Shown one piece after another: positions 22,022-48,791 of a stretch of 64,000 bases of DNA. Source of the stretch: Butyrivibrio sp. (GTDB lineage: Bacteria; Bacillota; Clostridia; Lachnospirales; Lachnospiraceae); the NCBI GenBank assembly GCA_023664865.1, contig JAMPEU010000005.1, positions 1 through 64,000 of the forward strand, written 5' to 3'. The notes below the pieces were generated by a model. It searched no databases and was not told the origin of the DNA. It saw only the letters and a program-made list of their open reading frames with translations. The translations under genes and the position numbers were made by a program. Numbering within the stretch: the stretch's first letter is position 1; every line of letters begins with the position of its first letter.

Positions 22022-24100
22022 TTATATCAAATCTGCAATATCTGTCATTCTATTAAAAAACGGATCTTCCACTTTCAGTTCTATAAAATTTCTATCTAAA
22101 ACATCAACACTATGTATTAAAGCTAAGAAAATTTCATCAATTCCTTTATTTATTTTTGTTTCTGATTTAGGACATATTTTCATGTATGTCATAAAATAAT
22201 CAAGAATCCCCTCCTGCGCTTCCTGCATACATATGATATCTTCCTTTTTTCTTGTTTCATGCGCATAACATGGCTCGCCCCACTCATTAAATTCTTGGAT
22301 TGACGGCATAGGTGATGTCAACATTGTTTCCAAAATATAATAATTCTCATAAATTTCACTGTTCTCGGTTTCTTCCTTATCATAAAACGATAGAATATCC
22401 AATCCCTTATCCTGCATATACTCCTTTTCCAATTGCAGGAAATATAAGCCTTTCAAATGATTATCCACCAATTTTTGAATATACATCTGACTTGTTCCTT
22501 TTGCCACAAAATCAAAGAAAGCAACGTCACCTTCTTTTATATGTAAACCTTGCATATACTTGTGATAATTTCGCCTATTTTCAACGGCCTTATTCAGAAT
22601 TATATGAGAATAATCTGCTAATGAACCTGCCTTCATGCTGCCCAGTGCCGTTACTGTCTGTACGGAAATACCGAAACGCTCCTGCAGCTCTTCTTCCACT
22701 GTTCCTCCAAACTTCATCTCTCCCACATATTTAATATCCTCTTCATTCTCTACCCCTGCACGAATAGCAGCTGTACGTGAGGTCAGAAAATACACAGAAC
22801 TCTTGTCTCCATGTAATTCGTCATACATTTTCTTAATCAAATATCCGTCTCTTGCACAAAGCCATACATTTGAAATACCATAATTCTGCACCTGTTCCTC
22901 AAACCATATAACAAAATCAATTATAATCGGCGCAAAAAGCAGATATCCAATATCATATGCACTTTTAACAGAAATCTTCTGCTCTTCATTTTCAAACTGA
23001 AAAGGACTATTAAATATTTTTGATACAAACATTCCTATTTTAATTCGATTTGATAATCCTTCCATATTATCCCACAATCCCAGATAACCCACCATTTCCA
23101 GCAAATCTATCCCGCTGTAAACCCGGCATGCGGAAAACCCATGCTTTCTGGCGCTTTCTATATCTGCGACCAGGTCATCTCCTATATGGATACATTTCTT
23201 TTCGGAAATCCTGCCTTTTAACCTTTCAAAAAGGTCTTCTGTCTTCGCAGTCTTATATTCACATGACGCAAAAATATCCGTATAAAATTTTATATTACAT
23301 TTCTCAAGTAATTTTATAAGCTGCTCCTTTGTATAAAAGGTATCTGACACAATATAAATATCTTTTCCCTTTTTATGCATCTCATCACAAAAATCACACA
23401 TTTCCTGCCGTGGAATCACCAGTTCATAATCAATGCTCCATTCCAATTCTGCCAGTTCCTCAGGCGAAATTCCCGGAATCGAATATTCGCTTTTCATGTA
23501 GGAGTATATTTCAACAAGCGTAGGCGTCATAGATTGGGCAAGATGTTTTTCGCTCGCCATACGTCTGCCGCTAAAATCCTCGATTACAATACCCTTCTCT
23601 TTTAACCTACATTCAATTATATCAAATATATCTGTGGCAAATAATGTCTGGCGCATAATCACAGTATCAAACAAATCTATGCTCATCACATCATTTTCAT
23701 CAACCTGTTTCATAAGACATTCTCGTGAGATTCCGTCCGCACTTTTAAAATAATAGCTGACCTTTTTCAAATCACACAAATTTCTGCCTCGCACATCAAT
23801 TACGGCAATCTTATTCTCCGTACAGACCGTGCCAATTCGTTTAAAAATGGCTCTGCATGAACCGGGCCTTGCAACAACAATAATCAGTTTCACCTGACAT
23901 TCAATGGCATATTTTAATGGAATAATTGGTTTATCATATAATACTCCCTCTTCTTTATATCCATCTAAAAGTCCGATAATTTGAAAATCCTGTCCAATCT
24001 CATTAAGCGCTCGTTCTGTTTCCGTTCCGAGTCCGTATATGGCAATCTTTTCGTTTTTATACTGCTCAAGGATTTTTGATAACTCTGTCATTTTGTTCAC
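22022..24100 (-). CDS. HAD hydrolase fusion with N-terminal Rossmann-like module
   Basis: 692 residues. Residues about 16-105 are the locus-wide Rossmann-like module (IAIYGLGTETERAL, then LLDGY and IIVVARPG). A HAD domain follows with SIDLFDTVIMR (motif I), VSDTF (motif II) and HIGDDLVADIESA (motif IV), as in the COG5610 predicted hydrolases. The C-terminal ~330 residues form a second conserved part of that family (WLCARDGYLIKKMYDEL). It may dephosphorylate a glycan precursor; the substrate is unknown. Confidence 0.8.
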   Translation of the reverse strand: MNKMTELSKILEQYKNEKIAIYGLGTETERALNEIGQDFQIIGLLDGYKEEGVLYDKPIIPLKYAIECQVKLIIVVARPGSCRAIFKRIGTVCTENKIAVIDVRGRNLCDLKKVSYYFKSADGISRECLMKQVDENDVMSIDLFDTVIMRQTLFATDIFDIIECRLKEKGIVIEDFSGRRMASEKHLAQSMTPTLVEIYSYMKSEYSIPGISPEELAELEWSIDYELVIPRQEMCDFCDEMHKKGKDIYIVSDTFYTKEQLIKLLEKCNIKFYTDIFASCEYKTAKTEDLFERLKGRISEKKCIHIGDDLVADIESARKHGFSACRVYSGIDLLEMVGYLGLWDNMEGLSNRIKIGMFVSKIFNSPFQFENEEQKISVKSAYDIGYLLFAPIIIDFVIWFEEQVQNYGISNVWLCARDGYLIKKMYDELHGDKSSVYFLTSRTAAIRAGVENEEDIKYVGEMKFGGTVEEELQERFGISVQTVTALGSMKAGSLADYSHIILNKAVENRRNYHKYMQGLHIKEGDVAFFDFVAKGTSQMYIQKLVDNHLKGLYFLQLEKEYMQDKGLDILSFYDKEETENSEIYENYYILETMLTSPMPSIQEFNEWGEPCYAHETRKKEDIICMQEAQEGILDYFMTYMKICPKSETKINKGIDEIFLALIHSVDVLDRNFIELKVEDPFFNRMTDIADLI

Positions 24101-24135
24101 CTGCCCTTGTATAATTCTATTAATTATGCTTACGG

Positions 24136-25533
24136 CTACATCTTTATAATTTCCATTATTTTTTTCTCAAATGCCGTCATAGAAAAGTTCTTGTCATATA
24201 TTTCCCTTGCACGGATTCCCATATTAGATAATTGGTCATAATGCTCTATACACCATATAATTCTGTCCGCCAATTCCTGCTCGTCCTCACTGCAAAACAC
24301 AATTCCATCTGTTTCGCTGCATATGTATCCGGCTGTACCCGTTGCATCTGATACAATACAAGGTACACAGTGCATCATCGCTTCAGCCGCCACAGTAGGC
24401 ATAGGATCTTCTCTTGACGGACAAATCATTACATCCGCCCGGTCAAGAATTTCATGGATTTCATCTCTATTCATAGTTCCAGTCATGATAATTTCCGGAA
24501 TATCCCATATTATTTCTTCAATCTGCTTCGCCATCTGTGATGTCTTTTGTCCCACCAGATAAAATTCCGCTTTTCTAAGAACATTTTCAGGAATCTTCTG
24601 AATCGCCCTAACCAGAATATCCTGTCCTTTTCTGGTCTCAATATAGCCAATGGTTACAAAGCAGATTTTTCCATTGCTGCCATTATTCCGCTTCGTGCAG
24701 CCTTCCGCCTCGTCAGCCACTCCATAAATCAAATCGCCAATTTCCATATTCTTTATGAATCCGGATATCGCTCCTCTTGCCACCGGTCCCACGGCATAAA
24801 TCCGCATATTTTCCCGATTCAGCCCGCACAACGTTTCCTTATCTACACCATCATAAAAAAACAATGAATCGTGCAGCCACCATACTACAGGTATCCCTGT
24901 ATCCCGATCTGATAAAAAAACATAGAAATTTATCGTATTGCACACAACGCGCGAAAAACCAACCGTCCACTCTGCCTCTCGCATAGTCTCTATCTGCAGA
25001 TTAACGTCAACCACCACTGGAATCCCCTCAGAAACTAAGGTATCCCTTAACGGTCCATCCAGCATCGATGCAAACACTACATTATCCCCTCTCGCCCTAA
25101 GTACCTGTGCCATATGATATAGGGCAATTGCGGGACCGCCCAGCGTCAAATCATTCGATAAAAACAGCGTATAACACGACCTATCCACGTTTTCTGCACC
25201 ATTGTAATATTGTATGGGTTTCTTATAATCTGCCGGCAGCTTACTTTCTCCCCGACAGAATAATTTATGAAGATCATAGAAATGATAAATATTCTCTTTT
25301 GAAACACCCAATTCAAGAAGCTGCTGTTTCATCGACTTGACATAGAAACTTAAAATCACCACAACATCATATGCAAGCTTCACTCCCTGTTCCGGTGAGA
25401 GAATCTGTATTCCATCTAAATATGTATTCTGCTTGCCCGGTGAATTGTCAATTAAAGCAACTATGTTTTCTCTGGCAAACCATTTTTTGTAGCGATTATA
25501 ATAATCTCCCGTGCCAAAAATCAGGTATTTCAT
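24136..25533 (-). CDS. GT4-type glycosyltransferase with N-terminal module
   Basis: 465 residues. Residues 1-95 are the shared module (MKYLIFGTGDYYNRY, LIDNS). The GT-B glycosyltransferase begins at about 120 (LSNDLTLGGPAIALYHMA) and has the GT4 C-terminal features FVTIGYIETRKGQDIL and PSREDPMPTVAAEAM, with the conserved E-x7-E signature. It transfers a sugar from a nucleotide donor in the cytosol. It follows a GT2 gene by 10 bp. Confidence 0.88.
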   Translation of the reverse strand: MKYLIFGTGDYYNRYKKWFARENIVALIDNSPGKQNTYLDGIQILSPEQGVKLAYDVVVILSFYVKSMKQQLLELGVSKENIYHFYDLHKLFCRGESKLPADYKKPIQYYNGAENVDRSCYTLFLSNDLTLGGPAIALYHMAQVLRARGDNVVFASMLDGPLRDTLVSEGIPVVVDVNLQIETMREAEWTVGFSRVVCNTINFYVFLSDRDTGIPVVWWLHDSLFFYDGVDKETLCGLNRENMRIYAVGPVARGAISGFIKNMEIGDLIYGVADEAEGCTKRNNGSNGKICFVTIGYIETRKGQDILVRAIQKIPENVLRKAEFYLVGQKTSQMAKQIEEIIWDIPEIIMTGTMNRDEIHEILDRADVMICPSREDPMPTVAAEAMMHCVPCIVSDATGTAGYICSETDGIVFCSEDEQELADRIIWCIEHYDQLSNMGIRAREIYDKNFSMTAFEKKIMEIIKM

Positions 25534-25543
25534 GCGTTTCTCC

Positions 25544-26695
25544 TTATACAGTCCTGATTGGTTTTTTCCACATCAATTTTTCTTCTCCAATACCTATATC
25601 CTTAAGCGACTGCTTGATACTATCAGCATATTCCGGACGGCTTACAGCCAATAAAATCACATCATATTCCGTATTCAGAATATCACTCGGTTTTCTTACA
25701 TTTTCTATTTCCGAGCTGTTACTGTCAACCCATAAAACTACATTATACTTCATCTTGGTAAGCTGTCTGAAATAGTCCCTTCCTGCTTTGCCTGCGCCAT
25801 AAAGAACTATTCTTTTGTCACTTAATCCATCTGTGTCAAGCTGAAATTCCGGAATATGGATTTCTGATGCAAACCCCATTCCCCCATTTACCGCCATTAT
25901 CGCCGTAACCGATACCCAATGCTGAAGCTGTGACACTAAATTTTCTCTTAACGGATGTTTTTCAAAACCACGAATTAGTGCAAGATACGCCTTATTAATA
26001 TCTGACAGCATATGCGGATTTCCGCCGTGAAACATGGAATCCGTGCGATAACGATAATGATAAAAGCATTTATGGCATATTCTGACTGCACCACTGATTA
26101 TAAGATAATTATATAAAAATGCACCATCCTCGGCAAAATTATTGTCTGCATCCAAGTTCCTATACACCTGTCTGACAATCTCTGTTCTATACAATTTATT
26201 CCAAATCCAAGGCGTCAGGCGTTGTAAAGTATCTGAATCCGTATCATACAACATTGTTTTTAGTAAGAACTCTTTATCAATTCCCCCATACTCTCCTTCC
26301 GGGTACTGATCAAAATACTCCACAACCATACCCGGACCGGTCTCATAATGAACTCCCGTTGTTGCCATGTCTGCATCTTTGATTTGCTGAACCAGAAACT
26401 CCGCCATACCTTGGTCAATCCAATCATCAGAATCCACATACATAAGAAACTCCCCCGAAGCATGCTCAGCCCCTGTGCGCCTTGCGCCAATCAGTCCCTT
26501 ATTCTCCTGCCTAATATACACTACTCGTGAGTCACTGCCTGCAAACTCCTTACAGATTGCAGCACAGCCATCCGTAGAACCATCATCTATAAGAAGTATC
26601 TCCATATCGGGGCAGGTCTGGTCTATAATACTTTGCACACATGCCTTCAAATACTTTTCTGTATTATATATTGGTACAACAACACTTAGTTTCAT
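25544..26695 (-). CDS. GT2 glycosyltransferase with C-terminal module
   Basis: 383 residues. The GT-A domain runs from the start (SVVVPIYNTEKYLKACV, LIDDGSTDG, YVDSDDWI with its DxD-type motif) to about 280. The last ~90 residues are the shared module (RIVLYGAGKAGRDYF, VLWVDSN, VILLAVSRPE). Donor and acceptor cannot be read from sequence. It lies 39 bp after a module-bearing methyltransferase gene. Confidence 0.9.
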   Translation of the reverse strand: MKLSVVVPIYNTEKYLKACVQSIIDQTCPDMEILLIDDGSTDGCAAICKEFAGSDSRVVYIRQENKGLIGARRTGAEHASGEFLMYVDSDDWIDQGMAEFLVQQIKDADMATTGVHYETGPGMVVEYFDQYPEGEYGGIDKEFLLKTMLYDTDSDTLQRLTPWIWNKLYRTEIVRQVYRNLDADNNFAEDGAFLYNYLIISGAVRICHKCFYHYRYRTDSMFHGGNPHMLSDINKAYLALIRGFEKHPLRENLVSQLQHWVSVTAIMAVNGGMGFASEIHIPEFQLDTDGLSDKRIVLYGAGKAGRDYFRQLTKMKYNVVLWVDSNSSEIENVRKPSDILNTEYDVILLAVSRPEYADSIKQSLKDIGIGEEKLMWKKPIRTV

Positions 26696-26734
26696 ACGAC
26701 CTCCACAATTATATAACCTAAAACTGAAACCATC

Positions 26735-27673
26735 TTATTTTTCCAAAAGCGTAACACAGTCCAGCCCTTCTACTCCTGCCCAGTTTATTACTCTCTGTTC
26801 AAGAACCCGAAAACCATTACGGAATGACAGATAAGCGAATATACCCGCATTCATATAACTTCGCCCATGCAGGCTATTGATAAACGATGCCGTATAGTCC
26901 TTATCATAATTAGAATGGTGAACCAGAACTCTTCCACCCTTCACCAATACCCGATGTATATCTTTTAAATATTCATTAATATCCATCATTTCAAAATGAA
27001 CCACCGCATCATACGAAAAAAGCGCCGTGTATTGGCCGGATGGTAATTGCTCCAGATTAAATCCATTATTACAATAATAGTGGATATTATCATATGCTTG
27101 GAATCTGTTTTTGCAAAAATTGATATTTTTATCCAATATATCAACCAACGTAACATCTCCAGCTTTATTAATGTATTTCTCTACATGCCTGCCCCTGCCA
27201 CATGCCAATTCTATCACGTTGGTTAAATCCAGCCGGCAAAACAATGAATATATTTCTGACTTTTCATTCCAGAAGATGCCCATAGGATTATCGTCTTCCG
27301 CTTGCTCGAAATAATCATCCATATTATCAATATGGAAAAACGCTAAATAGTCTCTATTAAACTCTACCCTGTTCTGCCCCAGATAATCTGCTATGCTATT
27401 CATTTCATAGCTTATTCCGCCGTCTTTCCTGATTTGCTCCTCTATCTCTGAAAAGACCTTCTGATCATATGTGGAAATCAGAAAAGGAACTCCTGCAAGT
27501 TTTACCTCATCATACCCATAACATTTTTTGCCGTCATATTCTCCCAGTTCTGAATACCGCCTGTCGCAAAAGCCCTTTACGCACCCATCCAGACCTTTTT
27601 CCTTAAAAAAGTTATAATAATTCTTCCCCTGTTTTCCCATTCCATATATAATAAATTGTTTCTGTTCATTCAT
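26735..27673 (-). CDS. SAM methyltransferase with N-terminal module
   Basis: 312 residues. The shared module is at 6-100 (FIIYGMGKQGKNYYNFF, FCDRR). A class I methyltransferase follows, with motif I VIELACGRGRHVEKY and the acidic motif TLVDILDKN. It would methylate a sugar or small-molecule precursor. The first 8 bp overlap the end of the upstream GT2 gene. Confidence 0.85.
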   Translation of the reverse strand: MNEQKQFIIYGMGKQGKNYYNFFKEKGLDGCVKGFCDRRYSELGEYDGKKCYGYDEVKLAGVPFLISTYDQKVFSEIEEQIRKDGGISYEMNSIADYLGQNRVEFNRDYLAFFHIDNMDDYFEQAEDDNPMGIFWNEKSEIYSLFCRLDLTNVIELACGRGRHVEKYINKAGDVTLVDILDKNINFCKNRFQAYDNIHYYCNNGFNLEQLPSGQYTALFSYDAVVHFEMMDINEYLKDIHRVLVKGGRVLVHHSNYDKDYTASFINSLHGRSYMNAGIFAYLSFRNGFRVLEQRVINWAGVEGLDCVTLLEK

Positions 27674-28811
27674 CTCCCAAACTCCGTTCTATAATTTCTC
27701 TAATCGTATAAATTCCAACATTGTATTTTTCTCTAAGAAGACTTTTTACAGGATTATAATTTCGTACCAGTGAAATGATTACCATATCTATATTGTCTGG
27801 CGCATCTTCCAGTTTGTATACCGGTACTTCTTCTTTCAGATAGTCTGCATTTCTGTCAATAAAAAATATCGTTTCAATATTATATTCAGCCAATTCTCCC
27901 ACTAACCTTTTGCCAAGATAACCAGCCCCATATATGGCAACACGTTGTACCCCCTTATCTTTCAGGCGCTTTCCAAACGGACAACCTTTTTCACGACATA
28001 TGGCAATCATGTTAAGCGTCATAAACATATCTCTAAATTTTTCCAAAAGCGCTATCCAATCAAACATTGCATTCCGTCGCATGTTTGATATCTTCCGCAA
28101 TTTTTCATCATCAAACGCTTTATTTTCTGATAGAATATCATACATTTCATCCAGAGACAATATCATTCGTTTATAATCAAGTGACAGATTGCTGCCATTG
28201 ACAGTATGTTCAAACAGAATATTCTGGTTCAATGCAAATTCAGCCTTTCCTGCAAGCATACATAACCATAGCAGATAATCGTCGGCACAATTTGTCTCCA
28301 TAATATTATCTATCCATAGCTCCGGTATTGATTCTCGCCGTAACAAGACCTGTCCTGCTGAAATAATAGGATTTCCCTTAGTCAGCATGTGTTCTTCTGA
28401 TACGACATCTTCAAATTTCCTATCTACATTATAAAACTGCTTGTTTTCATGAATACACCTACATACTACGGCATCCGCATCCCCTATACAAGATAATTGG
28501 CTCTTTACATAATCCGGGTACATGATATCATCCTGATCCAGAAAAACAATATATTCACCGCTGCTCCTCTTAAGCCCTTGTACTCTGGCTCCTTGAATAC
28601 CTCTGTTTATTTTTGTGTCCAACAAAATTACACTGATGGTATCCGAATAAGTATCTTCCTCAATACTGCCTTCCGGATCATCATTAGATAAAACCAGTTC
28701 TAAGCTTATGGAATCCCCCAATACTTTTTGACATGCTTCCGCCATCTGTATTAAGCGCGGTATATACTGTTCCCCATGATAGAGCGGCGTAATGATGCTA
28801 ACAATCTTCAT
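27666..28811 (-). CDS. GT2 glycosyltransferase with C-terminal module
   Basis: 381 residues. The GT-A domain has SIITPLYHGEQYI, LVLSNDDP and VFLDQDDIM at its active site. The module occupies about 290-378 (RVAIYGAGYLGKRLV, FFIDRN, MVIISLVRN). A helical linker rich in basic residues precedes the module, as in the related stand-alone protein at 31963-32439. The next gene starts within its last codons. Confidence 0.88.
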   Translation of the reverse strand: MKIVSIITPLYHGEQYIPRLIQMAEACQKVLGDSISLELVLSNDDPEGSIEEDTYSDTISVILLDTKINRGIQGARVQGLKRSSGEYIVFLDQDDIMYPDYVKSQLSCIGDADAVVCRCIHENKQFYNVDRKFEDVVSEEHMLTKGNPIISAGQVLLRRESIPELWIDNIMETNCADDYLLWLCMLAGKAEFALNQNILFEHTVNGSNLSLDYKRMILSLDEMYDILSENKAFDDEKLRKISNMRRNAMFDWIALLEKFRDMFMTLNMIAICREKGCPFGKRLKDKGVQRVAIYGAGYLGKRLVGELAEYNIETIFFIDRNADYLKEEVPVYKLEDAPDNIDMVIISLVRNYNPVKSLLREKYNVGIYTIREIIERSLGDE

Positions 28812-28883
28812 ATGTCATTTCCTTTCATTGTAAAGACTTCACTAATAACAACCCGTCTCATAATTTCAACTCTTATATATAAA

Positions 28884-29999
28884 TCATGGATATATCTGCT
28901 CCCTATTGCATCGCTTTTCTATTATGCTTCTTATCTCTATATATGCTTGTTCCGTTCCAACCGCTATAATAATTCCATCATTATCTGATATATCAGCATC
29001 ATCAAAAAAAAGGCGTTTCTCCCCCTGATTTCCAATATCTGACACTAAAAATCCTTCAAATGACCAGCCCTTATAATCGAAATATTCAGCCAAATTCTTT
29101 CCACAGGTTCCCGCACCATATAAATATATTTTAGCATGAGCATAATAGAATTCGCTCAATTTAGAAAAATCCAATTTCGCTCGTTCATGCAACGGCTGTC
29201 CAATTCTCATTAAACGCTTTTTTATAAGTCCAACATCATAAATTTCCTGATCTTCCATATATTTAAATGCCTTAAATGCGTTACTAAATCCTGAAAACCG
29301 CATATCTAAGCTCTTGCATTTTAAAACAGGAATCTTTGCATCATGTATCAATTCATATGAATATGACATATATGGGTTGCAGTTCACCTTTTCAGAAAAA
29401 CTGAATCCATATAAATCCGATAATGCCACTCCTCTCCACCCACATTCACTTAATAGCTTATTACATTCCAACTCAAAGCTACGAACTGCCTGCAAAAATG
29501 ATTTCGGATATGGCATTTTCTCCCAAAATTCCTTAAATCTATTATCGCTAAAAACACTTTTACGCAACACAAGAAAATAACTCTGTATATGGGCATCATA
29601 AGCATACCCATCTTCCTGCACGCCCTTTGGCGACTTTGTCATCCCCCAATAATCAACGTCCATTTTTTCCATTTTATTAAAACAGTCCTCAAACGGATAC
29701 AAGGGACCATAAAATGTATCATTAACAAGCAGCAATTCATCAAACTTACATACATTATCCCAGCCTATGTATTTGCATAGTGCATCTTTATAAGCGCCTG
29801 CATCAAAACCAAGATTTTCTCTGGATATAATAGTATCGGTGTATTTATAAAGACGCTCTAAATAAACATTATCGATATTTCCGTTTACTACAATAACCAA
29901 TTTATCTACCACAGGCTTTATACCATCCAGAAGGTAAAATATATAATCATCCGCAATCCCTTCTCTATCATAAAATACAAATATGCCTAATCGTTTCAC
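28884..29999 (-). CDS. RgpF-like rhamnan/glycan synthesis glycosyltransferase with C-terminal module
   Basis: 371 residues. The N-terminal ~250 match the rhamnan synthesis protein F family: VNGNIDNVYLERL, RENLGFDAGAYKDAL, LLVNDTFYGPLYP and later the QSYFLVLRKSVF stretch. The module is at about 290-371 (IYLYGAGTCGKNLAEYF, IIIAVGTEQA). Family members add or process rhamnose-containing wall polysaccharides. The specific linkage is not known. Confidence 0.85.
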   Translation of the reverse strand: MKRLGIFVFYDREGIADDYIFYLLDGIKPVVDKLVIVVNGNIDNVYLERLYKYTDTIISRENLGFDAGAYKDALCKYIGWDNVCKFDELLLVNDTFYGPLYPFEDCFNKMEKMDVDYWGMTKSPKGVQEDGYAYDAHIQSYFLVLRKSVFSDNRFKEFWEKMPYPKSFLQAVRSFELECNKLLSECGWRGVALSDLYGFSFSEKVNCNPYMSYSYELIHDAKIPVLKCKSLDMRFSGFSNAFKAFKYMEDQEIYDVGLIKKRLMRIGQPLHERAKLDFSKLSEFYYAHAKIYLYGAGTCGKNLAEYFDYKGWSFEGFLVSDIGNQGEKRLFFDDADISDNDGIIIAVGTEQAYIEIRSIIEKRCNREQIYP

Positions 30000-30029: not shown

Positions 30030-31016
30030 CTAATGTTTCTTTCCAATTATAATCCAGTCATCCGCATCCCTTATTTGATTAACAATTTCCAGATTTAAAT
30101 ACCGAAACATCTCTGCAAGACATTCCTGTGAAAATACATGGTGGTGCAGACATCTGTTCTCATAGTTCTTATGGGAACGTATAATAAAGTTTTCTTTTCC
30201 GCCACATGGCAAATCCATATCATAATCATGTTTTTCTATAATCTCCGGCAAATGTGACAAATCCGTCTCATCTATATCATTCTCGTAATCTTCCAAAATA
30301 TGTTGAAAAGTCGTATATTCCCTGTTATGATCAAATGTTTTATCCTTTCTGGGAACAACAATGATAATTAGTCCATCTTCCTTTAACACTCTTCTAAATT
30401 CACTTAATGCCTTCATCGGATTAGCAATATGTTCTAAATTATTAGAGGATAACAGAAAATCATATTTATCATTTTCTAATTTCCGCAATTGTGTTGCATC
30501 ATCAATAATTACTTTTCCCAATGCTTTTTTCTGATAGCTATATACTTCTTCCTCATTTTTCCACCATATGGTTTTATCAGAAAAATTTACACCGTCGCAC
30601 GAACCTGCCACTTCATATATTTCTGAAAAAATATTAGAAGGACCTCCAATTTCCACCCCCTTTTTCCCTGTCAGCCAATTTACTCCAAATATCTCTTTAT
30701 AATAATCATGTAGAATTATATCAACCAAAACAATTTTGTTTTCCGGAAATCCTAAGTTCAGCAGGTGACGCTTTATCTCATCATAAAATTGCTTTGAAGA
30801 AACAACCATCTGGTCAAATTCCACATCTATAAACTTGTTTACGTCACAAACCGTAAGAGATTTTCCGTTTATGAAGATTTCCTGACCATACAAATCTTTA
30901 TTACTGTCAGTCAAACCAACCACTTCTATCCCTTTCTCATAAACTCTTTTTCCAAAATCGCTATCCAAAAACAATTTCTGAAACATATTTCCAACACCGT
31001 AAATAATAATCTTCAT
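30030..31016 (-). CDS. SAM methyltransferase with N-terminal module
   Basis: 328 residues. Residues 1-100 are the module (IIIYGVGNMFQKLFL, GLTDSN, QMVVSSKQ). The rest is a class I methyltransferase of the Methyltransf_11 kind, with FLLSSNNLEHIANP and LIIIVVPRKDKTFDHNREY, typical of glycan cluster methyltransferases. It is separated by 9 bp from the upstream fucosyltransferase gene. Confidence 0.82.
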   Translation of the reverse strand: MKIIIYGVGNMFQKLFLDSDFGKRVYEKGIEVVGLTDSNKDLYGQEIFINGKSLTVCDVNKFIDVEFDQMVVSSKQFYDEIKRHLLNLGFPENKIVLVDIILHDYYKEIFGVNWLTGKKGVEIGGPSNIFSEIYEVAGSCDGVNFSDKTIWWKNEEEVYSYQKKALGKVIIDDATQLRKLENDKYDFLLSSNNLEHIANPMKALSEFRRVLKEDGLIIIVVPRKDKTFDHNREYTTFQHILEDYENDIDETDLSHLPEIIEKHDYDMDLPCGGKENFIIRSHKNYENRCLHHHVFSQECLAEMFRYLNLEIVNQIRDADDWIIIGKKH

Positions 31017-31025: not shown

Positions 31026-31907
31026 TCAAATCATTTTCCATTCTTTTTCATGTAACCGTCCTTCAAATAAATTTTTTGGAGCTACAATCAATTTCCCATG
31101 ATTCTGATTCAGCCATGCACCCCAATAACTAAAGGTACTAAACGCAATAATATTGTGTTTACATTTTGACATTAGTATCAATTCTTCATAATCTGTATAT
31201 CCATCTTTGCTTATCCAATAAACATTGTCCCCAAATTGAAATCTATTCTTCGCCATAATGGGATCATCCGTAAAGATCATAAAATATGGATTATCCACCT
31301 TGTCTTTAATATATTGTATTGCTTTATCATAATAAGACTGTTTTAAAATGGCCGATGGATCAACAAGAGGATTTATTAAATAATCGGTTAACCGGATATG
31401 AACAGAAACTGTATTCTTTTCTTCAATTATCTTCTTTAAATCATCCGACAATCTTAACCCTTTCTTCAACTGTAATTCCTTCAATAAAATGTCACTATAG
31501 CTTTTAAAATATCCCTTATTTACGCAATGTGCGCTAATATATGTATAATCCTCAGGAGATAGAACATCAGCATTTATGCTGCATTTTCCCGCCTCATCAT
31601 CTACTATGCTCCACTTACCTATATGCTTCTTTAAAAGCAAATACCTTGTTTTATCCATTACCCCTGTTCCGTCCAAACAACGCAAATCAGCAATTTTATT
31701 TGTTTTTATCATTTTCATGGAAATATTAAAATGCTGCAAGCCCAGTTTTCTCTGCACAATATCTTTCCGTTCAAAAGGCAAATCTCCCCTGTTGTTATGA
31801 CGTACATCCAAATAAACAGGAACATCAAGCCTCTCTTGCAGCGAACGCGCATATGCGTACTGAAAAAGCTGATTGCCAAGACCTTCCCATATTCTTACAA
31901 CTATCAT
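31026..31907 (-). CDS. GT11 alpha-1,2-fucosyltransferase-like
   Basis: 293 residues. The family signature GLGNQLFQYAYARSL is at residues 9-23, the donor-binding VHIRLTDY near 171-178 (usually HIRRGDY), and AFSTFSYWGAWLN near the C-terminus. This is the GT11 layout for transferring fucose, or a related deoxysugar, onto a galactose-type acceptor. It lacks the Rossmann-like module. The Leu-Thr in place of Arg-Gly suggests a different donor specificity. Confidence 0.88.
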   Translation of the reverse strand: MIVVRIWEGLGNQLFQYAYARSLQERLDVPVYLDVRHNNRGDLPFERKDIVQRKLGLQHFNISMKMIKTNKIADLRCLDGTGVMDKTRYLLLKKHIGKWSIVDDEAGKCSINADVLSPEDYTYISAHCVNKGYFKSYSDILLKELQLKKGLRLSDDLKKIIEEKNTVSVHIRLTDYLINPLVDPSAILKQSYYDKAIQYIKDKVDNPYFMIFTDDPIMAKNRFQFGDNVYWISKDGYTDYEELILMSKCKHNIIAFSTFSYWGAWLNQNHGKLIVAPKNLFEGRLHEKEWKMI

Positions 31908-31962: not shown

Positions 31963-32439
31963 CTAAACCTCATACAGAATATCTTCCAGTGAAATAATTG
32001 GACAATCCATTTTCACGGAAAGTTTCTCCTCTATCTCGTCAAAAAATGTTATAGCAGTCACTACAACTGCATCTACATCTTCCAAATCGTCTTCTATAGA
32101 TACAATGTCCACATCTGCATAGATTGCACCTGCATTTTTATCAATGCCATAAGCAACCTTTATGTCTGTATCCTTCAATTCGTCAATTAAAGTTTCTCCA
32201 ACATAACTCATACCATAAATGGCAATTTTCTTATATTCATTCCTTTCAAAATAGGAGGCCAGATTCTTTCCCTCTTGCTTTACCTTTACCCATTGATTCA
32301 TCATAAGGAAAAGTGCCAGATGCTTATTTGAATATGATTGAGCTTTCTGTTCTCTTTCTCCCATCGTCTTTCCGATTACGCCTGCTCCGACTGCTGCTCC
32401 TGTTAATGCTGATAATACTGAAATAATTCCTTTCTTCAT
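31963..32439 (-). CDS. Stand-alone Rossmann-like module protein
   Basis: 158 residues with no catalytic domain. The N-terminus (residues 4-25) is a small hydrophobic glycine/alanine-rich stretch that could touch the membrane. Then comes a linker KQEGKNLASYF and the module (KIAIYGMSYVGETLIDEL, YGIDKNAG, VVVTAITFFDE). The same linker plus module ends the GT4 protein at 34627-36255. This shows the module can fold and act alone. Function unknown; PglD/NeuD-like UDP-sugar-binding domains are the closest fold analogy. Confidence 0.78.
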   Translation of the reverse strand: MKKGIISVLSALTGAAVGAGVIGKTMGEREQKAQSYSNKHLALFLMMNQWVKVKQEGKNLASYFERNEYKKIAIYGMSYVGETLIDELKDTDIKVAYGIDKNAGAIYADVDIVSIEDDLEDVDAVVVTAITFFDEIEEKLSVKMDCPIISLEDILYEV

Positions 32440-32482: not shown

Positions 32483-33532
32483 TCACTTAGTAAATAGAAA
32501 CAAACCATATCTATACTCTCCATTATGTGGATCGTTATCATACTTATGAATATCTACATTATATTCTATCTTTCCTTCCGCTGTACACGAAAATTCTTCT
32601 AATTTTAAATCAGAAAAACACTCCTTTACTGTAGAAGCATAAAATACTCTGTGAGCATTAAATTCTACTCTCTCTTTGCCAATAGGAAGTGAAATATATA
32701 ATTTTCCGCCCATTTTAAGTTTCTTCTGGATATTATCAAAACATTTAAAACAGGCTTCCGGGTCAATTGAATCCCCATATCTTCCTAAGCCGAAATGTTC
32801 CAGCGAACACAAAGCCGACATACTCTCTATACTTTCATTAGGTATCTGATGCAAACTGGTAGCGTCATCCACTATTGTATGCAAGCCTTCTACTTCTCCC
32901 GGAAATTCACGTACATCAATCATTGTAACATCTATATCCGCCGCCAGCAGATGAGCAATGAAACCATCCAATCTAGAGCCAATGTCAAAATGTTTCTTTA
33001 CCCCTAACTTACAAATCAATCTTGCAGCCCACAAATCCTGCAAGAAGTAATTTCCTATCGTTCCTGCATATGCGTATTTATCTGCCATGATAGGCCACAT
33101 ATATTTATCCTGAATATCAAAATTAGAACGTTTATTTGTTTTTCTGTATTCTTCAATATCCTTTTTAAAAAATACATTATCAACAATTCCAAATTCTGCA
33201 CAATAATTCGTATAGTTCTTCTCTTGTAATAATTCCTGAAGAATTTTCTCATCTGCACAGCCTACCCTCTTCTTAACGCCATATAAGAAAATAAGCTTCG
33301 ACTCATCAATGTACAATTTAGTACATAGAGCATATATTTCATTTACATAAGAATTTGCTACAATAATATAATCATATTCATTTGGTATCTCACTGCTATC
33401 ATACACAGGCTTATCCATAAATTTATCTCTCGATTTATGAGTTTCTATAAAGCCTATGATTTCCCCGCTGTATCCATTATGAATAAATTTCTGAGCAAGA
33501 TTACCAGTTCCCCAGATTAATAATTTTTTCAT
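32483..33532 (-). CDS. DUF268-type methyltransferase-like protein with N-terminal module
   Basis: 349 residues. The module is at 1-90 (LLIWGTGNLAQKFIHNG, FIETHKSRD, IIVANSYVNE). The remainder belongs to the DUF268 family, with a methyltransferase-like core KHFDIGSRLDGFIAH and LCSLEHFGLGRYGD. It probably acts on a nucleotide sugar or glycan precursor in the cytosol. The exact reaction is not known. Confidence 0.8.
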   Translation of the reverse strand: MKKLLIWGTGNLAQKFIHNGYSGEIIGFIETHKSRDKFMDKPVYDSSEIPNEYDYIIVANSYVNEIYALCTKLYIDESKLIFLYGVKKRVGCADEKILQELLQEKNYTNYCAEFGIVDNVFFKKDIEEYRKTNKRSNFDIQDKYMWPIMADKYAYAGTIGNYFLQDLWAARLICKLGVKKHFDIGSRLDGFIAHLLAADIDVTMIDVREFPGEVEGLHTIVDDATSLHQIPNESIESMSALCSLEHFGLGRYGDSIDPEACFKCFDNIQKKLKMGGKLYISLPIGKERVEFNAHRVFYASTVKECFSDLKLEEFSCTAEGKIEYNVDIHKYDNDPHNGEYRYGLFLFTK

Positions 33533-36255: not shown

Positions 36256-36301
36256 TATGCCTGTTTTTCCCCATTCCCTACACAAATAAGTTCAAAAAAC
36301 T

Positions 36302-37534
36302 TTACATTAAAAATTTATCCGATATTGGCAGCAATTCTAAATAATCATATTGCTGCAGATTCTTTATTATATCCTTTTGCTGACTTTCCTGAACACTAAT
36401 AACAATCGTCTTATCATACAATATCTGGCACACATCCATAATTCCTTTCACTTCAATTCCTTCGATATCTAAAGGATTCTCATTGACATTCGATACAATG
36501 ATAAGTTCTGGAATAATATTTAACCGCTTCATGTATGAAATAACTTCCCGAGCCCTTTTTCCGGCTCCATAAATTACATAATTTCTTTTAAATGCCAAAT
36601 CGAAGATTTGAGGTGTTCTTTTAGTAAATAGCAAACTATTCTTCGGATTGTATATAATATTTTGAACAAATTCACTCCAAAATTCATTCATAATACTATC
36701 ATATTCATATATAAGGCTTTTTCTAAAAAATTTCCACCAATAATCCATAAATACACATTCGCTACTATTCCATGGCTTATACAAATCTGCATAATGTATG
36801 ATACACGGCTTATTCCATGCTTCCTTTAATTCTTCTTCACTATAACCGCCTTTATAATCCTCAATGCGCATATCTGCAAGCTTTGTCATAACATTATATT
36901 TGAACGGCAGCAATGCTATTTTCCCATAGCAGGCATTATTAATAACATCTTGATCCTGCGACGGCATATTCAGTTGCATCAACTCCAAAAACTTCCCTAC
37001 CATTCCATCTTGACGCAATTCCTTAAGGTTCATTACCAGAACTCCTGCATTAATATACTGATCAGCGCTTGGAATATTAGCATTTTTGCAAATTGCATCT
37101 TCCCATTCATATAATATAACTCCCGGATGCCATACCCCTGCTATATAACTTGCATCCAGAGGTGTATTGAAGAGTTCTTGCAAGTCCGACAGAATAATCG
37201 TATCTGTATCTAAATAAATACATTTATCTTCGCTTAGCAAATCAGGAATCATCAATCGATAGTATGTTGGGCGTGTTATATGCGATATAGTAATAAATGC
37301 ATTATTGAAAACATGCCCGACATTTTGAAATGACAGTGAACACCTTTCACCAAAACCACATAAACAGTTCTTCACAGCAAGCTCTGATTCTTGTGTAAAT
37401 GAATCATCTATTAAAATATAGATATCATAGAATGTATCTTTTCCTGCATTTTCTATCATAGAAGTGATAGAAACAATCAATGGAATATAACGATTATCAG
37501 TTGCCATCACTACCGGTATATGCATCATTATCAA
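36302..37534 (-). CDS. GT8 glycosyltransferase with C-terminal module
   Basis: 410 residues. GT8 features are VVMATDNRYIPLIVS at the start, the metal-binding YLDTDTI (109-111 DTD) and INAGVLVMNL, with HYADLYKPW near the end of the catalytic part. The module is at about 318-405 (YVIYGAGKRAREVISY, IIVSNV, IVISVQES). GT8 enzymes usually use UDP-glucose or UDP-galactose and retain anomeric configuration. Confidence 0.87.
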   Translation of the reverse strand: MIMMHIPVVMATDNRYIPLIVSITSMIENAGKDTFYDIYILIDDSFTQESELAVKNCLCGFGERCSLSFQNVGHVFNNAFITISHITRPTYYRLMIPDLLSEDKCIYLDTDTIILSDLQELFNTPLDASYIAGVWHPGVILYEWEDAICKNANIPSADQYINAGVLVMNLKELRQDGMVGKFLELMQLNMPSQDQDVINNACYGKIALLPFKYNVMTKLADMRIEDYKGGYSEEELKEAWNKPCIIHYADLYKPWNSSECVFMDYWWKFFRKSLIYEYDSIMNEFWSEFVQNIIYNPKNSLLFTKRTPQIFDLAFKRNYVIYGAGKRAREVISYMKRLNIIPELIIVSNVNENPLDIEGIEVKGIMDVCQILYDKTIVISVQESQQKDIIKNLQQYDYLELLPISDKFLM

Positions 37535-37661: not shown

Positions 37662-38996
37662 TCATAACTTATTGTGATTGATAAGCGTAGAGTAGATTCC
37701 ATCTTCATATTTCAATTGTTCTTGAAATAATTCACCCAAATCCTTCCGCATCAATAGATAATCCCATATCTGCATATGTTTATTAACATAATTTTTCCAT
37801 GACCAATCCCGCACTGCTTCTGTCTTTTCCAAGCGTTTGCGCTGCAAATCAATAAAGGCATTGTGAAACTGTGTAACATTTCTGCAGGGATAATCAATAT
37901 CGCAGTCAACATCCAGATGAAATCCCTGCGGTGTAACAATCGTTCCTACCCCTGCTGCCAGCGCATCCAGATATCCCATGTTTCCTTCGTCAAAACCCAT
38001 ATAAAGAAAATAATCTATGTCCTGCATAAGCTGATTATACGTATCATAATCAAAGGAATCATGATACTGTACCTCAAATCCTTTATTTCGCAGTTCATCC
38101 ACAATCCGTTCCCAGCCACTCCCCATGATGATAAATTTGAAATAATCACAATTGACACCATCTACAATATCTAAAATCGCAGTTTCCCGCTTTCTTACAT
38201 CATATGTGTCATAGCACCTATGCGTTATGCCGATTTTATATTTTTTAGGTCTGATTACCCCATCATGGGCCGGGTTAATATAACACAGCTTATTTGCCGG
38301 TATTCCATATGTTTTCAGCATTTCCATGGTTTCCCTTGACATACATATCCCCATGCCTGCCGTTTCTAACTGCTTTTTTAAAATAGAAAGTTTTTTATAA
38401 TCATCAAGATGTGTAATCATCAGCGTATCATGCGCATAAGGTTTATAATATCCCCCTTGAATATGATGGTTAATCTCAACATCCGGTCTGCTGTTATTTG
38501 AAATGTAAGCCCGAATTCCACTCTCATCCAAATATTGTTTCATGCGTTCCGCAAATTTTCTTAAAATCCAGCCTCCATCACCACAAACCAGATTAACCGT
38601 ATAAGTATCTTCAAAATTTACCCTTTTATAAGATTTTGTCGTTGCATCATATGTATTAGGAGTAAAAGCAATATTGTTTTGTATGCACAATACTTTGGCT
38701 TTGATATCATATCCCTTTATCTGCTCAAATATCTCCCAAAATATCTCCGAATCATATGTGAAAACTACAATATATATTTCTTCACGACATTTTAAAAGTT
38801 CCTCTGGTCTGCAGACTTTTATTCCATTAAGCACTCTGCCCGTCAAATCCGCATTTCTATCACACACATACGTAATCTGCGGCAACTTATCGCAGTTGTC
38901 CTTAAAACACTGTCCCATACCATATGCAACTATTTTTTTGGGTTCTCTTTTATATAATTCCAAAAAGTCTTCTTCAAATCTAATTAGCTCAATCAT
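37662..38996 (-). CDS. CgeB-like glycosyltransferase with N-terminal module
   Basis: 444 residues. The module spans about 18-105 (IVAYGMGQCFKDNCDKL, VCDRNADL, IVVFTYDSE). A GT-B domain of CgeB/Glyco_trans_1_2 type follows, with FIIMGSGWERIVDEL, DYFLYMGFDEGNMGYLDALAAG and a late IVTPQGFH. It overlaps the cupin gene by 4 bp. CgeB homologues decorate spore coats or surface glycans. Confidence 0.82.
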   Translation of the reverse strand: MIELIRFEEDFLELYKREPKKIVAYGMGQCFKDNCDKLPQITYVCDRNADLTGRVLNGIKVCRPEELLKCREEIYIVVFTYDSEIFWEIFEQIKGYDIKAKVLCIQNNIAFTPNTYDATTKSYKRVNFEDTYTVNLVCGDGGWILRKFAERMKQYLDESGIRAYISNNSRPDVEINHHIQGGYYKPYAHDTLMITHLDDYKKLSILKKQLETAGMGICMSRETMEMLKTYGIPANKLCYINPAHDGVIRPKKYKIGITHRCYDTYDVRKRETAILDIVDGVNCDYFKFIIMGSGWERIVDELRNKGFEVQYHDSFDYDTYNQLMQDIDYFLYMGFDEGNMGYLDALAAGVGTIVTPQGFHLDVDCDIDYPCRNVTQFHNAFIDLQRKRLEKTEAVRDWSWKNYVNKHMQIWDYLLMRKDLGELFQEQLKYEDGIYSTLINHNKL

Positions 38997-41548: not shown

Positions 41549-41582
41549 AATATATTACCTCAAACATTAGCTACTATGATTA

Positions 41583-42515: not shown

Positions 42516-42538
42516 GCCTACACTCCCACCTTTCCGCA

Positions 42539-43795
42539 CTAAATACAAAGCATATAGCAATATTCTGTTACTTTATTGTCTTCCAACGTACTTTTTATTG
42601 ATTTCCACAGTTCAGAATTCACTGCGCCTATTATTCCGGCATTTTTCTGTTTCCGGCATGCCTCTGATATCTTATATACTGGTTTCCCCATAAATTCATT
42701 ATCTGTATCAATCTCATCTGATACAATAAATCCATCATATTCAATCCCATTAACACGAAATTTTTCAGCAAGTGATTTTCCATAATATCCAGTCCCCCAT
42801 ATATATACATGCTGATAATTTCTTATGAAATTCCTTAACCCTGCTGATAAATAATTCTCACTGTAAAACTGCTTATATGCCTCAAATATATCCTCAATGT
42901 ATTTTTTCAAAGACTCATCGCTTTCTTCAATAAGTTTTTGCGCTTTCTTCATAAATTCAGTTACCTGCAAGTTATCACTGTAACGAAACGCAATAAACAG
43001 GTAATACAATACTTTATCATTCATGATTTTGCTAAATATCTTTTTAGTATATTCATCATATTCATGTATGAACCTTATCATTTTAGCATAATGTAGAATT
43101 ACCTTTTCAATATCGCTATTCAATGTGTCAACACACCATGAACCCTTATGATTATGCCTATATACCGACATGATTCTATCGAAATAATAGACCTTTCCTT
43201 TGGCTATGCTGTATAATTGCATAGGAATATCGCCAACGCCGCATTCCATAAAAAAGTGTTCCATATTCTTAATATCAGCCCGCATTATAATACTTGCCGA
43301 TGGTATATTACCATTATATTGCATAATCAATTCTTCAGGACTGATTTCCTTCTCTGACAAGTATGGATTCATAGCCTCTAAAGCATCCTTCTTATAATCC
43401 ATTAACAATGCATTATGTGCTGTCATAAAATAATCAGGATGCCTTTCCATCCAGTCTATCTGAATCCTTAACTTATTATTATCAATCCAAAAATCATCTC
43501 CCTCGCATATCGCAATATACCTTCCCCGACATTTTTTCAAAATATCCATAGTTATTGATGAAAGGCCTCTCTTTTTGCACTGATTTTCTGATTCATAAAT
43601 TACTCGAAACAAATCAGGATATTTTTTTTCATATTCTTGAATAATTTGCGGAGTATTATCCGTGGACGCGTCATCATGCACTATTGCTTCATATTTGAAT
43701 TCAACATTCTGATGAATGATACCTTCTAGTGTATCCCTAATATAACTTTCATGATTATACGTAATGCATACAACAGAAACCAGCACGTCATCCAT
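42539..43795 (-). CDS. GT2 glycosyltransferase with C-terminal module
   Basis: 418 residues. The catalytic domain has SVVCITYNHESYIRDTL, VHDDASTDNT and ICEGDDFWI. The module is at about 328-417 (HVYIWGTGYYGKSLAEKF, FIVSDE). Its ATGGATGAC start once overlapped the end of the radical SAM gene (NG then TGA); that link is broken by the AAA-gene insertion immediately upstream. Confidence 0.88.
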   Translation of the reverse strand: MDDVLVSVVCITYNHESYIRDTLEGIIHQNVEFKYEAIVHDDASTDNTPQIIQEYEKKYPDLFRVIYESENQCKKRGLSSITMDILKKCRGRYIAICEGDDFWIDNNKLRIQIDWMERHPDYFMTAHNALLMDYKKDALEAMNPYLSEKEISPEELIMQYNGNIPSASIIMRADIKNMEHFFMECGVGDIPMQLYSIAKGKVYYFDRIMSVYRHNHKGSWCVDTLNSDIEKVILHYAKMIRFIHEYDEYTKKIFSKIMNDKVLYYLFIAFRYSDNLQVTEFMKKAQKLIEESDESLKKYIEDIFEAYKQFYSENYLSAGLRNFIRNYQHVYIWGTGYYGKSLAEKFRVNGIEYDGFIVSDEIDTDNEFMGKPVYKISEACRKQKNAGIIGAVNSELWKSIKSTLEDNKVTEYCYMLCI

Positions 43796-43813
43796 TTTTC
43801 TTCTCCCCTATCT

Positions 43814-43837
43814 CCATCTGTTCAAGCTCATTCAATA
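43814..43837. repeat. 24-bp direct repeat, left copy
   Basis: Identical over all 24 bp to 47419-47442. On the minus strand it encodes the radical SAM gene end (ILNELEQM region), and the bases after it continue in frame as EIGEKKNG and a TGA that overlaps the GT2 start. It marks the downstream edge of the AAA-gene insertion. Confidence 0.95.
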
Positions 43838-43845
43838 GTAGCACT

Positions 43846-45540: not shown

Positions 45541-45623
45541 ATGCTCCCCTTATTTTTTAAGATATAAGTTCTATATAAAATATAACACATTGCGGCATAT
45601 TCCTCAACGTGCCTTATCCTTTT

Positions 45624-47312: not shown

Positions 47313-47383
47313 ATGCTTCTCCCTGTTTTGAGTTTGATTCATGACACCAAGCCCACATTGCACTGCTCATTACCATCGCATAT

Positions 47384-47412
47384 ATTATAGCATAAATTGG
47401 ATTACTTCACAA
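47384..47412 (-). promoter_or_regulatory. Promoter of the AAA-gene insertion
   Basis: On the minus strand, -35 TTGTGA (47407-47412) and -10 TATAAT (47384-47389) are 17 bp apart, with an extended -10 TGC. It lies just inside the insertion boundary. It would drive both AAA genes and then the downstream glycosyltransferase genes. Confidence 0.65.
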
Positions 47413-48791
47413 TTAGAACCATCTGTTCAAGCTCATTCAATATGTCATCAATATAAAAAATCTTCCCTTGATAATCCAAATCCTTCAGCTTTTCCACGAT
47501 CTCATCATAGCAAACAGATGTAATAATTATTGCATCCTCTTTTATTTCTAATGAATCCGGTGAAACAATGCAATATCCCATATAGCTTTTTTCTTCTGTA
47601 AATTTAACGTCATAAACCTTTTCTATATTTACATTAGTATTTTTTAATACACTTAACATACACTTACAGGCATTACTAAAACCATATAATGACAAACAGT
47701 TAATACCGTTGCTTTCCATCCAAGTTCTCATCAACAATCCCAGATTATCTTTATTCAAAATCCTTTCGACAAGACTCATTTTTTTACTCTGCAATACATC
47801 ATAAGGAAATTCTTTAAGCCTCGACAGATAGTCACCCTGCCACTTCCATACTTTAGGATTATTGAAGATAGGATTACGCATAACCTTGACAAATTCTTCA
47901 TAAAAAGGATGATATGGATTTCTGATGTCATAAAACCACTCTATGACCCCATCCTGCACCTTATACGGGGTAAAAAATCTCAGCCTGATTTTATCAGGAT
48001 TAAATTCTTTTAAACATCTCTCAACATACGCCGGCATTTCTCTAAAATTGCTCTCACAGACAACCGTTGCTATCTCAAAATGGTTTACTATATCTTTATC
48101 CCTAAGTTCCTGTATAAAATGCAGATTTTCAATAACATTGCTCATCGGCATATCAGTTCCTGACAGAAACTGGTATGTAGCCTCGTTAAAACTGTGTACA
48201 GTAATATATACTGTAAGATCATACTTTTCAAGGTTACTGATTTTCTCCCAATTCTTCCTATTAAATAAAGAACCATTGCTTTCCAACTCAATAGACAACT
48301 TCCTATCCGTATTAATTGTGCTTAATAATCTCATCGTCCTTGTACTGCAGAATATTTCACCTACTCCATTTGTCGAAACAGTGTCCAACTGGTCAATAAA
48401 TTTATTAAGCTCATATTCAATTTTATCAATGCATTCCTTTTCGCTATCTTTTATCCTATAAGGCTCTTTCCTACAGAACTTGCACACATAATTGCATTGT
48501 TCCTCGTATGACAGGCTGCAAAACTTGGGATATTCCGGCACACTATATTCCACTAACATTGTATCCAAATTATTGTTGGCAAGAAATGGGCATTGCTGAC
48601 AGTCACAAAAGCGATAGCTTCCATCCAGCATAGACTGACGAAACGCTTCCGCCTTTTCTCCATGCCACAACTCTTCAATGGAAGAATCCTGCAAATTGCC
48701 TAAATTATATCCCGTCCATCCACATACCCTAACTTCCCCCCCCCATATAGTTAATCCATATACTTTCCAAACCCATTTTACATACTTTCAT
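47402..48791 (-). CDS. Radical SAM/SPASM protein, out of frame at a G9 tract
   Basis: The intact frame from ATG 48791 would be 462 residues if the G run at 48736-48744 had eight bases. With nine, the product stops after 20 codons, and only a TTG-started fragment from 48694 is open. In frame the N-terminus would have SPASM-type cysteines (VCKMG, EVRVCGW, FCDCQQC), then the radical SAM cluster CNYVCKFCR, and a C-terminal Rossmann-like module (LSLYGFSNACKCMLSVL). The start overlaps the previous gene's stop by 4 bp (ATGA). The C-terminus VLIVK is new; the ancestral end was lost to the AAA insertion. Confidence 0.8.
47419..47442. repeat. 24-bp direct repeat, right copy
   Basis: Upstream boundary (in the direction of transcription) of the AAA-gene insertion. 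It lies within the radical SAM coding frame (ILNELEQM). It matches 43814-43837 at every base. The bases on each outer side differ. Confidence 0.95.
48736..48744 (-). repeat. Poly-G tract (9 G) in coding sequence
   Basis: C9 on the plus strand, G9 on the coding strand, including the G of an internal ATG. Eight G gives the SPASM frame GGEVRVCGW; nine gives GGGS and a stop. A homopolymer of this length is prone to slipped-strand mispairing. A read error is the alternative. Confidence 0.85.

Follow-up and report, generated by a model that had tools for sequence, protein, structure and literature searches.

Why would a single small domain be attached to so many different proteins of one glycan locus? 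We addressed this question in a 64,000-nucleotide stretch of a Butyrivibrio sp. genome (Lachnospiraceae; GenBank assembly GCA_023664865.1, contig JAMPEU010000005.1, positions 1 to 64,000; hereafter, the window). A first-pass annotation had described the same unit of roughly 90 residues at the N-terminus, at the C-terminus or alone in 14 glycan-locus proteins. We observed a homologous module of ~85-95 residues in all 14 proteins. Counts across related loci show that the module is fused to many acceptor-acting enzymes and is absent from most donor-making families, with two possible exceptions. The 14 module genes span 22022 to 48694, all on the minus strand, within a same-strand gene run whose intergenic gaps are at most 127 bases. 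Families below were assigned by Pfam and modules by a profile hidden Markov model (HMM), except where stated; GT denotes glycosyltransferase families.

23771..24079, minus strand: module 1, N-terminal on a HAD fusion protein (22022-24100).
25249..25533, minus strand: module 2, N-terminal on a GT4 glycosyltransferase (24136-25533).
25547..25843, minus strand: module 3, C-terminal on a GT2 (25544-26695).
27374..27673, minus strand: module 4, N-terminal on a methyltransferase (26735-27673).
27669..27962, minus strand: module 5, C-terminal on a GT2 (27666-28811).
28887..29156, minus strand: module 6, C-terminal on an RgpF-like protein (28884-29999).
30702..31016, minus strand: module 7, N-terminal on a methyltransferase (30030-31016); the sole window module above the PF22674 cut-off.
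31963..32439, minus strand: stand-alone module protein of 158 residues, with the Rossmann module at 31966-32256 (alignment, hydropathy, model).
33263..33532, minus strand: module 9, N-terminal on a DUF268 protein (32483-33532).
34630..34932, minus strand: module 10, C-terminal on a GT4 (34627-36285), with a W-KQEGK lead-in helix in common with the stand-alone protein.
36305..36592, minus strand: module 11, C-terminal on a GT8 (36302-37534).
38667..38969, minus strand: module 12, N-terminal on a CgeB-like protein (37662-38996); module by HMM, CgeB name from the first-pass annotation.
42542..42832, minus strand: module 13, C-terminal on a GT2 (42539-43795).
47405..47707, minus strand: module 14, C-terminal on a radical SAM/SPASM-type protein (47402-48694); family matches below the Pfam cut-offs.

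In a leave-one-out analysis, profiles built from the other 13 segments recovered all 14 in the correct place (14.9-48.8 bits). Composition shuffling of 29 window proteins, 100 times each, gave at most 12.8 bits among the 2900 resulting sequences, and the top non-module protein, which is FUT8-like (33620-34600), reached 13.8 bits. The HAD-fusion module was the weakest and was marginal in this test (14.9 bits); with all 14 modules in the model, it scored 66.7 bits in the genome search (E = 7.2e-18). Identity to the stand-alone module was 15-32%, and the sole invariant column across the 14 was the first glycine of the loop. The module was N-terminal in six proteins (HAD, GT4a, MT1, MT2, DUF268 and CgeB-like), C-terminal in seven (GT2a, GT2b, RgpF, GT4b, GT8, GT2e and radical SAM) and alone in one. 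These data bear out the first-pass annotation on both the shared unit and its placement. Among its enzyme names, HAD was recovered by Pfam, the CgeB-like protein passed no Pfam or NCBIfam family, and the radical SAM protein fell below the Pfam cut-offs.

We assessed which enzymes carry the module using a Pfam sample of 80 loci, comprising 113 of 491 eligible module-bearing proteins (from a draw of 114) and 115 of 514 eligible module-free proteins. Among the families listed (the top 25 of 44 with the module and the top 25 of 95 without), module-bearing proteins included GT2, GT4, RgpF, WbsX, DUF4422, FkbM and other methyltransferases, LicD, WcbI, radical SAM and TIM barrel families. Module-free proteins included epimerases, DegT aminotransferases, UDP-sugar dehydrogenases, IspD and asparagine synthetases. 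Certain families fell on both sides (without versus with the module: GT4, 21 vs 9; GT2, 8 vs 22; radical SAM, 6 vs 3). Single-linkage clustering of the catalytic parts gave 105 families of at least three members; 28 always had the module, 46 never did and 31 were mixed. The module stood at the N side in some members and at the C side in others in 5 of the 105, and the members of the GT4 family divided into 37 N-terminal, 23 C-terminal, 1 mid-protein and 69 without. Since one catalytic fold has the module at either end or lacks it, action in trans, whether for assembly or for control, fits better than a fixed cis contact.

By enzyme role, the module was present in 435/599 proteins of 14 transferase-type and other families versus 0/144 proteins of eight donor-side families, where the families were chosen by us and named by the Pfam match of one representative or by resemblance, and the rows are related and partly duplicated. 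The larger group includes HAD, DUF268 and DUF4422 proteins of no known role, the donor-side group includes asparagine synthetases, and smaller catalytic families were left unnamed. Families outside this count were two radical SAM families (17/29 and 6/26 with the module), WcbI (9/11), a GT2-like family (17/17) and a family named polysaccharide-deacetylase-like by resemblance (5/9). A corresponding Pfam sample from outside the genus covered 50 of 55 proteins with the module and 77 of 117 without, leaving out most of one region (L224) that is much like another (L223). The proteins with the module included GT2, GT4, methyltransferases, pyruvyl transferase and radical SAM. Those without were mainly epimerases, DegT and nucleotidyltransferases, together with six GT2 and three GT4. 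We also observed a recurrent module-free family of 14 members in module loci (L060 13958-15157, L135 3098-4306), of which the L135 member had no Pfam match.

The stand-alone protein (31963-32439) belongs to a 73-row family with invariant G14, W50, Q55, G76, G81, D100 and other residues, a near-invariant G18 and a conserved W-KQEGK helix. Its N-terminus is hydrophobic: 66 of the 73 rows have a 19-residue window of mean hydropathy of at least 1.6. The structural model, with a predicted local distance difference test (pLDDT) score of 86.3, has one long helix (residues 3-55) leading into the module, with lower scores (57-60) for the first 20 residues. We rejected an oxidoreductase role because the protein was modelled as helices plus module only, with no catalytic or substrate domain; the model has no DNA-binding part either. 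We hypothesize that this protein is a hub. The full-length form was found in 13 of 25 genus genomes, and each of these 13 has modules. Three genomes (G003, G007 and G011) have the lead-in helix and module in open reading frames (ORFs) of 486-548 residues, like the GT4 at 34627-36285.

Within the source genome, we observed 20 module matches at E 0.01: 14 in the window, five on a 7.4-kb contig and one on another contig. The genome has 46 GT2 matches, and the module is on 3/5 in the window, 1/1 on the small contig and 0/40 elsewhere. The module marks a kind of locus. The small contig (L050; G000:C142, 7414 bases, same assembly) encodes 5-6 module proteins. Four of them have counterparts among the window proteins (GT4, 55%; GT2, 43%; HAD, 28%; RgpF end, 64% identity). 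It is either a second locus of this type or the product of a strain mixture (assembly contamination 5.11%).

Beyond the source genome, 33 of 41 genomes (its own and relatives) matched the module at 1e-3, 14 of them with at least 10 matches, and many of the matches listed were clustered. In a phylum sample, with at most 20 candidates scored per genome, 67/249 genomes matched at 1e-4; 12 had three or more matches and 47 had one. Some of the single matches were of CapD- or NeuD-type size, and the three scanned were all CapD-type. The window and 40 fetched regions held 264 modules in 261/630 ORFs, and reversed or shuffled ORFs from the same set gave no module match at E 0.01. Ten regions from nine genomes outside the genus had the module in 55/172 ORFs. 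We also collected loci around the best 80 of 148 relatives of the stand-alone family (hub loci); these were chosen by the hub and partly overlap the 40 regions. Most were labelled Lachnospiraceae or other Clostridia, several were labelled "bacterium", and two were labelled Muribaculaceae and Bacteroides. The hub loci contained 644 modules in 641 ORFs, 639 of them on the hub's strand, and about half of the ORFs of at least 230 residues carried a module (521/1071). A profile search of Firmicutes genomes had been proposed as a check, and the module does recur in glycan loci; the Pfam content of module loci, including those outside the genus, likewise upholds the suggested tie to glycan genes as a strong one.

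We modelled the module with AlphaFold2 from only the 14 window sequences (97 residues, pLDDT 94.3, predicted template modelling score 0.85). The model has a short leading helix followed by strand, helix, strand, strand, strand, helix, strand and helix. The module is thus confidently modelled as a half-size Rossmann domain: it shows a beta-alpha-beta unit with a glycine-rich loop, and its strands and helices follow the order of the Rossmann-like superfamily. Foldseek ranked Rossmann-type enzymes first (best E 2.0e-3; 3nkl seventh), and succinyl-CoA synthetase alpha (1oi7) had a template modelling score of 0.70 to the module. No Foldseek match reached E 0.001, and the module was therefore assigned to its relatives by sequence profiles.

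Against PDB sequences, the module profile matched 3nkl (6.5e-8), which we take from its name and length to be a CoA_binding_3-type domain, 2g6t (2.6e-6), presumably CAC2185, and the redox repressor Rex (6.7e-6). Matches to VioB (0.031) and WbaP (0.18) were weak. The profile also matched several ORFs of ~610-650 residues in phylum genomes; the three scanned were CapD-type dehydratases in which the match (residues ~146-242) lay within CoA_binding_3, and in two of these three the same stretch matched PglD_N below its cut-off. None of the 14 window proteins matched CoA_binding_3 (PF13727) or PglD_N (PF17836) at E 0.5 in the Pfam scan, and kinship to CoA_binding_3 is visible only from the module-profile side. 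One of the 14 window modules passed the 27-bit cut-off of the C2185-like N-terminal domain (PF22674) with 31.2 bits, two more scored 18-19 bits, and the other 11 proteins had no match to this model at E 0.5 in that scan. In the larger Pfam sample, 3 of the 113 module proteins matched PF22674 at 1e-5. A NeuD-type NCBIfam model was weakly matched by the window GT8 (0.016). The profile matches and the predicted fold support the view that the module is a divergent relative of the CoA_binding_3, PglD_N and C2185_N domains and a member of no single filed family. The first-pass annotation had drawn a fold analogy to PglD/NeuD and had named structure prediction as a check. The analogy was right in kind, given the Rossmann-like model and the sub-cut-off PglD_N overlap, although direct matches to NeuD models were weak; the prediction, made from the 14 sequences jointly, returned a confident Rossmann-like fold.

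The domain superfamily is already known; the architecture appears to be new. Like the module, CoA_binding_3 is tied to glycan pathways, where it occurs in WbaP-type phosphoglycosyl transferases and CapD/PglF-type dehydratases, and the module profile matches it in the CapD type. In WbaP, that domain reportedly has a membrane helix bundle on one side and a single catalytic domain on the other, whereas the module tags about half of the larger locus proteins. PglD_N, found in the PglD/NeuD/VioB acetyltransferases, shares with the module its glycine-rich beta-alpha-beta start and overall order, and belongs to one enzyme family. The C2185-like model recognises one window module and leaves most modules unrecognised. 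We know of no function for this domain, and a search by title of the open-access literature found none for CAC2185, 2G6T, PF22674, 3NKL or C2185-like. Rex, to which the module has a likeness by profile, is a DNA-binding regulator whose Rossmann domain senses nicotinamide adenine dinucleotide (NAD(H)). Repeated use of such a module as a tag on acceptor-acting enzymes was not found in the open-access literature, searched mostly by title.

We examined residue conservation across 842-846 module rows. The best-kept polar positions were the two loop glycines, at 96% and 78%, and the Asp that follows strand 2 (76%); nucleotide-binding relatives hold their ligand at this loop and this Asp. In enzyme-borne modules, the first loop glycine was kept in 95-100% and the second in 88-96% (372 N-terminal, 293 C-terminal and 47 mid-protein rows for the second position). 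Val replaced the Asp in 15% of modules overall and in 26% of C-terminal modules. A tree of 532 modules from 29 families required 100 catalytic-family changes, compared to 365-378 in eight shuffles. Kinship among modules tracks the enzyme family rather than the locus.

We also assessed membrane genes, calling an ORF polytopic when crude hydropathy windows gave five or more membrane spans; flippase-like genes were sought by this count only. Polytopic ORFs numbered 5/1405 in the 80 hub loci (in four loci), 4/576 in the 40 regions (in four), 0/27 in the window locus and 0/172 in the ten regions outside the genus. Eight other GT regions of the source genome had 15/119 polytopic ORFs, and one region, L200, had none. 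The scarcity of flippase-, polymerase- or exporter-like genes in module loci suggests that glycan assembly is largely cytoplasmic, perhaps on a protein; transport genes may lie elsewhere. The idea of a single shared acceptor was explored with two candidates and set aside. Flagellin (PF00669) was present in 25/25 genus genomes, including three without modules, and its presence is uninformative. At least 7 of the 25 have flagellin-domain frames on a module-bearing contig, the nearest among the matches listed being ~13 kb away (G002:C68), which leaves a tie between flagellin and the modules possible. The secreted protein at 59755-61200 was present in 3/25 genus genomes, as was its membrane neighbour.

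These two neighbours (59755-61758) lie upstream of the glycan genes. The secreted protein begins with a signal-peptide-like segment, and the membrane protein has a single span. One genome (G020) has homologues of both near a module locus (63% and 95% identity, respectively). The membrane protein also has a homologue in L144, where similarity to the secreted protein is limited to the region around its signal-peptide end; the secreted protein has a weaker relative at C136:77142.

The reading that we rank first, tentatively and short of calling it probable, is that the module binds nucleotides and serves assembly and control within a largely cytoplasmic glycan-building machinery. The glycine-rich loops would all take up a common nucleotide, and the modules would associate mutually, directly or through the stand-alone protein, whose hydrophobic N-terminal helix may anchor the cluster at the membrane. 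The acceptor-modifying enzymes would then work as one complex responsive to nucleotide state, on an acceptor that is possibly a protein. Placement on either side of one catalytic family, and on enzymes that release no uridine diphosphate (UDP), argues for a role at the level of the pathway. Docking on one carrier or membrane scaffold, as the first-pass annotation suggested, would fit the placement pattern and the hydrophobic stand-alone protein; its alternative, a sensor, is just as possible, given that enzyme-borne modules keep the glycine-rich loop. Rather unlikely, in our estimate, is a nucleotide-gated docking code in which tagged acceptor-acting enzymes and the membrane-anchored stand-alone protein would form a cytoplasmic glycan megacomplex, with tagging letting gut Lachnospiraceae swap in transferases. 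A doubtful but serious competitor, ranked second, is that the modules serve their own enzymes privately as allosteric or product sensors, each binding uridine monophosphate (UMP), UDP, a UDP-sugar or NAD(H) with no docking, and that the copies reflect a shared benefit of the same feedback. By analogy, the WbaP domain is a partial precedent for both the first- and the second-ranked reading. The majority of WbaP dimer contacts are reported to lie in the CoA_binding_3 domain, almost entirely via a beta-hairpin, and a ligand screen of the isolated domain pointed to UMP, UDP and uridine triphosphate (PMC10942596). The 97-residue module model has no such hairpin, which makes WbaP a weak precedent for association and slightly lowered our confidence in the first-ranked reading. 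In published models of EpsZ, both its DUF and its catalytic domain are contacted by the regulator EpsW (PMC12802240).

Several observations weigh against a shared assembly domain. The nearest module in another locus belongs to the same catalytic family for 443/532 modules, and only 6/532 have their closest kin in their own locus. Freely exchanged, interchangeable tags might be expected to homogenise within a locus, which we looked for and hardly saw. We identified no conserved non-ligand surface on the module, and most of the matching phylum genomes (47/67) have a single match, which cannot dock to siblings. The full-length hub occurs in 13 of the 25 genus genomes; six others have 8-19 modules without it, two of them (G002 and G020) with a shorter stand-alone form. 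In stand-alone modules the second loop position is Ser in 57% and Gly in 25% (n = 134), so these may not bind the same ligand as the enzyme-borne ones. Transferases without the module are numerous (GT4, 69/130; GT11, 25/31), and two possibly donor-side families carry it (cytidylyltransferase-like, 10/13; xylose-isomerase-like TIM barrel, 7/13). As to cytoplasmic assembly, the 4/576 polytopic ORFs of the 40 regions place transport-type genes near some modules, and the region at G011:C2 121-141 kb (L208), which adjoins a module locus, has four large polytopic ORFs and three module matches.

Several observations would suit a private sensor. The ligand-type positions are the best kept, the WbaP domain is reported to respond to uridine nucleotides (PMC10942596), modules follow their enzymes, single copies predominate in the phylum sample, and the module model has no WbaP-type dimer hairpin. 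However, the module also occurs on methyltransferases, radical SAM proteins, the deacetylase family, HAD proteins and the stand-alone protein; members of one catalytic family may have it N-terminally, C-terminally or not at all; and Val stands in for the Asp in the fractions given above. Methyltransferases, radical SAM, deacetylases and HAD proteins release no UDP or UMP. The bias by enzyme role (435/599 vs 0/144) speaks against a lineage-specific decoration, that is, a fusion-prone stabilising domain with no common function that was amplified by glycan-locus shuffling, as do the restriction to certain loci within one genome, the kept glycine loop and the conserved stand-alone protein. We consider such decoration improbable, although the high divergence (15-32% identity to the stand-alone module), the 31/105 mixed families and the possible donor-side carriers are in its favour. 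Lowest in our ranking is acceptor recognition, in which the module would hold a carrier or acceptor protein common to these enzymes. Most of the enzymes that carry it are expected to work on the acceptor, and its absence from the eight donor-side families (0/144) is likewise consistent with this, and the few transport-type genes make a soluble protein acceptor plausible; the conserved positions, however, are those of the nucleotide loop, and neither flagellin nor the secreted neighbour qualified as a shared acceptor gene.

In our judgement, how Gram-positive bacteria keep glycan-building enzymes together and in order is poorly understood. If one small domain marks the chain-acting enzymes, it could be used to locate complete pathways and to predict which transferases cooperate, and assembly could be tested by ordinary pull-downs. 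The domain also brings together, as a single class, glycan loci of common gut bacteria that are poor in transport-type genes.

The window locus also contains enzymes without the module.

19331..21945, minus strand: donor-side genes of zinc alcohol dehydrogenase type, IspD-type cytidylyltransferase and ribulose-phosphate 3-epimerase type (Pfam); these probably supply cytidine diphosphate (CDP)-ribitol.
31026..31907, minus strand: GT11-type transferase (Pfam, HMM).
33620..34600, minus strand: FUT8-like transferase, the best non-module score noted above.
39477-40382 and 41583-42560, minus strand: two GT2 (Pfam, genome module search).
40418-41548, minus strand: DegT aminotransferase (Pfam).

Two similar AAA-ATPase_like plus PDDEXK_9 genes in tandem (43846-47363) lie between the radical SAM gene and a GT2 gene, and are perhaps an insertion. 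The protein at 48788-49903, between the radical SAM and DegT genes, had no Pfam match above cut-off and clustered with no other ORF of the fetched loci. A Pua-like metallophosphoesterase followed by an N6_N4 DNA methylase (53759-56529) is perhaps a defence pair. A pyridoxal phosphate (PLP) decarboxylase and a PylC-like ATP-grasp protein (57419-59619) adjoin the locus as a pair, and PylC-like ATP-grasp was also observed in 2/77 module-free proteins scanned from module loci outside the genus.

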